NCBI RefSeq assembly: GCF_000485595.1
Contig: NW_014577297.1
Location: forward strand, 77,677 to 133,614
From: Priapulus caudatus
Lineage: Eukaryota > Priapulida > Priapulimorpha > Priapulimorphida > Priapulidae
Reading direction: 5' to 3'
Length of the DNA stretch: 55,938 bases
The position numbers were made by a program, and so were the translations under genes. The notes below the pieces were generated by a model that did not search any database, was not told the origin of the DNA, and worked only from the letters and a program-made list of their open reading frames with translations. Each line of letters starts with the position of its first letter. The stretch's first letter is position 1. Of this stretch, positions 51,301 to 54,893 are shown piece by piece.

Positions 51301-54300
51301 ACATACATAAGTCTATATATGCTACTTACACTGACATCGTGTTAATAAAATAAATGGCAGGAGTTAATTTTTTAAAGCATCTTGTTTCGACATCTCTGCA
51401 CAAATCTACTAGCAAAGCTAGATAAGGGTTCGGGTTGGTTTACCGGTTAGGATTAGCTTTAAAGCTATCGTTACGGTTATGATTAAGGTTAGAGTTAGGT
51501 TCAGTGCTGTGGTTAGGGTTAGCGTTAGGGTAATGATAGCTTTTATGTGATTAAAAGGATAACATTTAGTGTAAAGGTTAGAGTTAGGGTCAATGTTGCG
51601 CGCATAAATATGCAAGGAGTATAAATAAAAGCCTATATATCTTCACCAACGGCACTATATGTTAGCGTGTGTAACAACAATTTAACGTTAACTTTAACAT
51701 TAATAAAAATAAATTTAGTAAAACATTTCTCTCACACACTTGCAGAGCCGTTGCCGATGAAGCTGAGAGCGCTGCCGCAGTCGTTCTGGCAGCAGCCCAA
51801 CGTCGCCAACAGCATCTCTCCTGGCAGCGTCTATCCGGTGCTGCCACCGCTGGTCATGAAACCGGACACCGGGGAGACAGGTAAACACCGTGTGTATATC
51901 CGTACGCGTGTGCGTGTGTGTGTGTGTGTGTGTGTGTGTGTGTGTGTGTGTGTGTGTGTGGTGTGTGTGCTGCATGTGTTTGCGTGCGTGGGTGTGTGTG
52001 TTGTGTGTGTGAGTGGCGTGCGTGTGTGTGTGTGTGTGTGTGTGTGTGTGTGTGTGTGTGTGTGTATGCGTGTGCGCGTGTCCGTGTCCGTGTGTGCGTG
52101 TGTGTGTGTTCTTAGTGGTATATAGTACGTTAGTAGTAGCATAAATATATATATGTGTGCATGAATATGTGTGCATATATATATGTGTGCATGAATCAAT
52201 AGATGTATATTGTATTACATTCTATTAAATTGAATTGTATTACATTGTATTGTATTGTGTTGTATTATACCGAGAAGACCACACGAAGTAAAGTGGGTCA
52301 GAACGACTAGTGCAGCTATAGTATACTTACATGTGCGCGTAGGATAATAACAGATCTGTTAGCGCATTACTCACTATCTATTATTACTCTATTTTGTACT
52401 CGTTTTGCCTACTCATGACCATTCTAGTGAGGGCATTTGCTGCCGATGATTCCGGCTGAGCCGCGATCCAACCCCTTTTCATTACAAGGCAGTATTCAAG
52501 GGATTCGCTCGCGTTAAGCCTCGACTCGTATTTCCAATTGCTCTCTATCTATACACGCTGGTTGGTACGCGAGCAGATCTTATCGGAAACTCGATAGCAT
52601 GAGAGGTAGACAACCACGCGACTATACGACACGCATCGCCGGTTTCATCAGAATGACCCGCGCGGATCGAAAATAGACGCTGCTCTACGTGATACAGTCG
52701 CAATTAGGCTACCTATATAATCCTGCTGATCGTGGCACGCGCGCGCGAGCGTCCTCGCCAGGTGTCATGGCGGCCTGGTGTTTATCAGCGTACGGTGGGC
52801 CGCCGATAGCGTAGAGGGAAGCCCGAAAAGTGATGCTATATTAATGGCTAGGCGAGAGCTGTTACAACTAAACCCACGCGCACTCGTACGCATGTAGGCT
52901 CACGCATGCGCTCACGCACGCGCTCGGTGCATCCACTGCCCAGTGTCCAATTTACGTGGGTGAAAGCTAGCGCATGTAAGCCGCTTACAAAAGGTTAGCG
53001 GTTCCTATAGTTGCACGCTGCGCTGTAGGTGGCATGTAATTACGAACGTCATCAGGGAGTGTCGGCAATCTTTCATCGATAGCACATAATATCCATCCTA
53101 TATATCCGCATCCCTAGAACCCCATCTCTAGATCCTTATCCCTAGATATTCGATAGATCCTAATCTGTAGATCCTCATCGTTAGGTATGTACGTGGATAA
53201 TATCCATAGATCCTTATGCATGAATTGTAGATCCCTAGATCGTAATTATTTGACTCTTAGGCCTATATATTTTAAATTATATATTTTATTGATAGTTGTT
53301 TTAGATTTTTATTAGATTCTGTTCCTAGATGCCATATCCTCATCTCTAGATCCGTATCCGTAGATCATCATGTATAGATCTTAATATCTAGAATCCAGAT
53401 TCATCTATCTTCATTCCTAGATCATCTTTCATAGACCTTTATCCCCAGAACCTAGAATTTCTTTCATCGTCGCCAGGTGTCGCCGTCGCGGAAGACTCCG
53501 ATTACGGTATCCGTGGTTACGCGTTTGCTTCGTCTGCGCCGTGCTTCACGCTTTGCTGACAGTCGAGTAGCCGTGCAAATAGTCCTCTTCATTGTCGTAG
53601 TTACCAGCTCTCCCCGCTTCGAGCGCGTAAGAGAATTACATTAGAGGCCTCGGCAGGTAGAGCGGAACCGCATCGTTCGCTCTACACGATCGTAATGGAG
53701 GCACACATATAGTAGATAGCACGTCGGCATAGCAGTGAACACGCTGGTCCGTGCATCGCTTTCTCGTCCGTGTCACGCGCTACGTCTCGGATGACATCAC
53801 GTTAAATTTTGGATCGCTTAATCGAGCGAGGCGAGTTATGGCGGTGCACATTTATATATATATATATATACTATATATATATATATATATATATATATAT
53901 ACCTACTGTAATGTTACGCAATAAGCGCTGACCATCTGTTGCACGCAGCCTCCGTCATCACAGCGTTACTCACGCAGCGAAGGCCGCTAGCTATAATACC
54001 TTAGTCACGAGGTGATTTTAAATGTCACCGGGTAATATGTTGTACTTATAGATAGGAGTTGAAACCTCCGGAATCGTCTTGTGTTGTAGCAAATAGTAGA
54101 CTTGTAACGTGGAACCGTGGCAGAGTATAGATGTAACAAGTAGAGATGTAGCGTATAGAGTCGTCCGGCAGAGATTGCAGAGTTACACAACGAATCTGCG
54201 ACTACTGGCTCTCTGTCTGATTTGGAATCTGCCGGAAAACCCTGCAATCTGTGCCGGACGACTCCACGTTACATCCCTATTGCTACATCTCTACTCTGCC

Positions 54301-54893: not shown

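Follow-up and report, generated by a model that had tools for sequence, protein, structure and literature searches.

The window analyzed here, a stretch of 55,938 nucleotides (C237:77677-133614 of contig NW_014577297.1 in a 385 Mb assembly; C237 numbering is used outside it), contains a gene that is not YAP, yet encodes a YAP-type Omega loop. As judged from sequence, this loop, carried by exon 3, is not the result of chance. The product was modeled as a protein of about 513 residues, mostly disordered and probably nuclear, which would act as a TEAD (Scalloped) cofactor or as a YAP competitor, a reading to which a probability of roughly 0.6 was assigned. A second TEAD contact in reversed order, made by a helix encoded in exon 4, is plausible, and the bipartite TEAD ligand suggested originally is a hypothesis. 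Since TEAD output hinges on which cofactor occupies its surface pockets, another cofactor with such a loop, if real, would add to the competitors so far catalogued at the end of the Hippo pathway. By the tests made, the candidate lies outside YAP and Vestigial, and a place in FAM181 or PERCC1 is unlikely. If the helix also binds, the order of the elements would be free, which bears on shared descent versus repeated building from short motifs.

Gene Model and Coding Evidence

The gene model consists of five exons, with one basic cluster in exon 2:

33222..33347, + strand: probable exon 1; ATG start, 42 codons, donor of phase 0, phase-compatible with exon 2
39709..40588, + strand: exon 2; open frame with AG/GT borders, ending in phase 1
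39919..39936, + strand: basic cluster KSKKKK, residues 113-118, a possible nuclear localization signal
51746..51880, + strand: exon 3, the Omega-loop cassette; in frame, phase 1-1, AG/GT borders
54728..54893, + strand: exon 4; phase 1 to phase 2, AG/GT borders
C237:154814-155048, beyond the window, same strand as exons 1-4: predicted exon 5, from exon scan and phase match

Exons 3 and 4 were present as described in the original prediction; they are bordered by AG and GT, and their phases (1-1 and 1-2) are compatible. Codon usage was modeled from exon 2 alone, and the model was applied to open 150-base stretches of both strands between 43 and 55.7 kb. The score of exon 3 was beaten by none of the 1697 stretches and that of exon 4 by 7 of them, and exons 3 and 4 were overlapped by 11 of the 12 best listed stretches of this ranking. 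Third-position GC was 0.80 in exon 2, a strong codon bias, 0.84 in exon 3 and 0.81 in exon 4, compared with 0.48 for this animal's YAP exon and 0.54 for one of the intron 2 sulfotransferase fragments. The exon scan of the exon 3/4 region gave 45.6 for exon 4 and 41.2 for exon 3, with the next candidate at 15.1. The product of exon 2 is disordered and rich in Ser and acidic residues, with a Lys-rich cluster. Since exon 1 ranked third among 14 listed candidates, it is considered likely, not certain; this choice reproduces the residue numbers used originally, the loop Met being residue 340.

Exon 5 scored 44.6 at C237:154814 and starts in the phase required by exon 4. It ranked second in its scan region, where the top score, 64.0, fell in GC-rich sequence next to an exon with weak BRCT likeness. 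Its frame stops at 155048, which brings the gene model to 513 residues. Because of a run of N between exons 4 and 5 and an assembly duplicate beyond exon 5, the join of these two exons is a prediction. The duplicate relates window positions 53901-55938 to C237:156294-158307 at 93% identity, comprises introns and a noisy second copy of exon 4, and is probably a misassembled haplotype copy. Its second exon 4 (C237:157134) was rejected as a duplicated exon, since the 93% identity runs across 2083 alignment columns, introns included.

In a genome search with the exon 3+4 protein, the three scored candidates all corresponded to the gene itself and the assembly duplicate, and no paralogue was detected. 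With an E threshold of 10, a Pfam search of the 471-residue exon 2-5 protein gave no family except TEADIR3; NCBIfam gave no family and Rfam no match in the whole window at gathering scores. A likeness of exon 5 to Mediator 27 (E 0.41) was treated as chance.

The Omega Loop of Exon 3

51754..51798, + strand: Omega loop PMKLRALPQSFWQQP, residues 339-353, TEAD interface 3 type; Pfam PF15238 (TEADIR3) over cut-off

Against TEADIR3, a model of 16 positions with a curated cut-off of 26 bits, the gene scored 27.9 bits as protein, 27.6 bits as the protein of exons 2-5, and 31.8 bits for exon 3 in a six-frame genome search. The latter search, over 385 Mb, gave 2 matches from 28 scored candidates, namely this gene and the YAP gene on C18, which reached 28.3 bits as protein and 31.0 bits in six frames. 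The two genes score similarly, so the loop is on a par with that of a genuine YAP.

PMKLRALPQSFWQQP is identical to YAP 85-99 at 9 of 15 positions, and likewise at 9 of 15, SFW included, to the FAM181A peptide. The original account listed a match at all key YAP positions, with W350 set against F96: the equivalents of M86, R89, L91, S94 and F95 are indeed unchanged, and F96 is replaced by W. The same Trp, in place of the last F, is the only departure from the fixed positions of the consensus PxxxRxLPxSFFxxP published in PMC9710580. Folded alone from its single sequence, the exon 3 peptide showed one 4-residue helix at a mean pLDDT of 68, which was uninformative. Exon 3 starts and ends in phase 1, so its skipping would delete the loop without a frame shift.

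YAP and TEAD in the Same Genome

The YAP gene of this animal (C18:323812) carries the LxxLF helix, the loop and the start of a WW domain in one exon. Its loop reads LPMRNRKLPESFWKPP and ends in SFW. The final Trp of the window loop, which had been taken as a sign of FAM181, thus loses this meaning, as it is found in the YAP of the same animal and, according to PMC7566471, at the last position of the Vestigial loop.

The search for the TEAD YAP-binding domain gave 8 matches from 8 scored candidates, located on three contigs and free of stops, and the translated exons include EAVDIRQIYDKFPEKKGG. The two of the eight that were compared with the PDB matched human TEADs at E 7.4e-26 and 3e-29. Given these exons, both TEAD surfaces seem to exist in this animal. 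On contigs C175 and C1893, TEAD YAP-binding-domain exons occur in two sets that differ slightly in their residues, corresponding either to two genes or to diverged haplotypes.

The Candidate Helix of Exon 4 and the Reversed Order

54820..54852, + strand: TDLLFSLFNAI, residues 412-422, candidate interface-2 helix; sequence comparison and helix prediction
40516..40533, + strand: LAELRD, residues 312-317, at the place of the interface-2 helix in YAP order; position comparison by eye

AlphaFold2, run on the single sequence, predicted a helix whose limits coincide with TDLLFSLFNAI, at residues 31-41 of the exon-4 peptide, with a block pLDDT of 79, the mean for exon 4 being 73. Foldseek with the exon-4 model returned 4 matches at E of 10 or less and none at 0.001 or less. 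The LFSLFNAI stretch covers residues 415-422, and 64 residues separate the loop Trp350 from Leu415. The exon 2-4 protein has a single LxxLF, C-terminal to the loop, while neither LxxLF, relaxed LxxLF nor VxxHF was found upstream of the loop in exons 2-3, nor in exon 1 when checked by eye. Since the modeled protein has no LxxLF or VxxHF before the loop, the reversed order stands, with the helix on a separate exon downstream, as originally described.

LxxLF alone is not remarkable, since shuffling the 85 residues that follow the loop produced one in 4593 of 200000 trials. The longer LxxLF[ND]A[IVLM], a pattern picked after seeing the sequence, appeared in 6 of 200000 such shuffles. When the 9-residue YAP core was compared with the protein, the helix scored 23 and the next best position 8; this score was equalled in 1/3000 whole-protein and 13/20000 downstream shuffles, and for the TAZ core 23/3000 and 90/20000, respectively, were as good. 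With the N-cap included, the 13-residue YAP comparison was equalled far more often (456/3000 in whole-protein and 1208/20000 in downstream shuffling), since TD is displaced upstream by one residue and the N-cap loses its register. In addition, Phe416 occupies the position of YAP Glu66. The helix had been described as close to YAP TDLEALFNAV, and at the same time as short and possibly due to chance. The former holds for the LxxLFNAI core and fails for the N-cap and for the Phe that replaces Glu, whereas the latter applies to LxxLF alone; on balance the helix is less certain than the loop.

These deviations bring in the strongest competing explanation, with odds somewhat short of even, in which the protein would be a loop-only TEAD ligand and TDLLFSLFNAI an amphipathic helix for activation or corepressor recruitment, with no role at interface 2. 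It divides the preferred explanation at its second step. LLFSLF is hydrophobic on more than one face, and the Phe at the place of Glu66 and the shifted N-cap agree with such a helix. A 9aaTAD-like pattern begins at the helix, though it has three matches in the exon 2-4 protein. TEAD binding without a helix has a precedent in FAM181A/B, as described in PMC10146773. Nevertheless, the NA and the hydrophobic residue after LxxLF are YAP-like, and the rarity of an equally good 9-residue core in whole-protein shuffles (1/3000) speaks against the loop-only explanation. With respect to geometry, PMC10146773 puts ~18 Å between the interface-3 pocket and the near end of the helix at interface 2, so the 64-residue linker would be long enough. 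PMC7566471 associates the longer linker of VGLL2 with binding weaker than that of Vg; on this precedent, the gain from a second contact could be small.

AT-Hook-like Segment

54883..54893, + strand: first half of KRGRPKK (residues 433-439), the remainder encoded by predicted exon 5

At the exon 4/5 join, the codon AGG is built from both sides and the protein reads AKRGRPKKLP. This looks like an AT-hook, in which basic residues surround a GRP core. The pattern [KR][KR]?GRP[KR][KR] was found in 39/100000 shuffles and RGRP alone in 1412/100000, and Pfam AT-hook gave no match in the exons 2-5 protein at E up to 10.

Comparison with Known TEAD Ligands

With YAP, TAZ and Yorkie the product shares the Omega loop and the LxxLFNA[VI] helix core, but in those proteins the helix precedes the loop, whereas here it follows on another exon. 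No WW domain appeared in the exon 2-5 Pfam search (E threshold 10), no PPxY was seen in the exon 2-4 protein, and exons 2-4 contain no LATS sites of the form HxRxx[ST]. A Trp-ended Omega loop combined with a second element is also found in Vestigial and VGLL2 (PMC7566471); there, however, the TONDU VxxHF lies before the loop, and exons 2-4 have no VxxHF. FAM181A/B resemble the product in the loop and differ from it in that the window gene has a five-exon model, the reversed order and no recognized N-terminal FAM181 region. PERCC1 has an interface-3-type loop as well, but with helix then loop, while here LxxLF occurs only after the loop and LAELRD stands at the canonical place. In a limited search of the open-licence literature, no description was found of a loop-before-helix order or of an AT-hook TEAD ligand.

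The statement that FAM181 proteins are known for the loop alone is in dispute: PMC10146773 describes FAM181A/B as TEAD-binding without the helix, in agreement with it, whereas PMC9710580 gives both FAM181 and PERCC1 interfaces 2 and 3, drawn consecutively as I2 and I3 like YAP. The original suggestion of an invertebrate FAM181 relative also bears on the second competing explanation, an unlikely one, in which the gene is a diverged or rearranged relative of FAM181/PERCC1, LAELRD being what is left of the canonical helix and the exon-4 helix the counterpart of a conserved, PERCC1-like C-terminal region. PERCC1 has been reported from echinoderms, molluscs, annelids and chelicerates, with conservation of its C-terminal region, in PMC9710580. 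LAELRD lies 28 residues before the loop Met, but the essential Phe is replaced by Arg. Moreover, no FAM181 N-terminal region was recognized in exons 1-2, exon 1 itself being uncertain. Vertebrate PERCC1 and FAM181B have LAxLFD helices, and PERCC1 a TPxxSDLLxS-like stretch near its end, which would favor the relationship.

A genome search with an approximate FAM181B N-terminal sequence as query gave its one match on another contig (C4:73798-73890, E 1.62), which tends to speak against this relationship. The match itself was rejected as a FAM181-like gene: no R-x-LP-x-S[FY] was found in four surrounding stretches, two of them partly N, and the five looser [LIFM]PxSF matches of these surroundings were all without loop context.

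Proposed Mechanism

In the preferred reading, that of a TEAD cofactor or YAP competitor, the exon 3 loop would probably dock on TEAD interface 3. The exon-4 helix might then span the 64-residue linker to interface 2 of the same TEAD, so that the YAP contacts would be made in reversed chain order, a tentative step; alternatively, the helix would recruit another partner. For a DNA contact supplied by the AT-hook the odds appear about even, and the AT-hook and the basic clusters could together serve chromatin association, a weaker proposal than loop docking. Skipping of exon 3 would remove the loop in frame. Taken in full, this would be a new class of animal TEAD cofactor with permuted YAP contacts (loop first, helix via the 64-residue linker to interface 2), a DNA contact through an AT-hook adjacent to the helix and TEAD binding switchable by loop-exon skipping, a combination that we regard as doubtful.

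Neighborhood

Downstream, C237:204380-206476 encodes PTB and SH2 domains (PID 48.0 bits, SH2 43.2 bits), 40% and 39% identical, respectively, to those of an approximate human SH2D5 sequence. SH2D5 is called mammalian-specific in the abstract of PMC11684657. Exons 1-5 could be the N-terminus of a PTB-SH2 (SH2D5-like) adaptor of which this is the last exon, linking phosphotyrosine signaling to TEAD. Both are on the same strand, the PTB-SH2 exon has no obvious first exon, a weak donor within exon 5 (4.6) would permit an in-frame junction with it, and third-position GC is similarly high (0.857 vs 0.803). However, exon 5 continues for 18 codons to a stop with a third-position GC of 0.74 in this tail, even if the tail's codon score is unremarkable (583/4044 open stretches as good), the exons are ~50 kb apart, and the weakly BRCT-like exon lies in between. 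The PTB-SH2 exon and the window gene are more likely separate genes, and a common adaptor is improbable. Least of all is it to be expected that the loop is a chance resemblance lacking TEAD function, since, although it was seen in one genome only and with a model of 16 positions, the other of the two six-frame matches in 385 Mb was YAP and exon 3 is clearly coding.

The weakly BRCT-like exon, at C237:181195-181555 and outside the window, matched PTCB-BRCT at E 0.0011 and BRCT at E 0.017, both below cut-off; it is perhaps microcephalin. Intron 2 contains two sulfotransferase-domain fragments, at 41150-41347 (+) and 42911-43264 (-), with Sulfotransfer_1 at E 6.1e-12 and 1.1e-9. A similar series of minisatellite-like arrays occurs twice in the window, at about 1578-5500 and 9932-13060, possibly another assembly duplicate, and a very long irregular G/T-rich minisatellite (33347-36407) adjoins probable exon 1 downstream. 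Exon 2 is flanked by two copies of a dispersed repeat, at 38569-38633, with many small indels, and at 50327-50391; the likeness between the two copies, as seen by eye, extends downstream.
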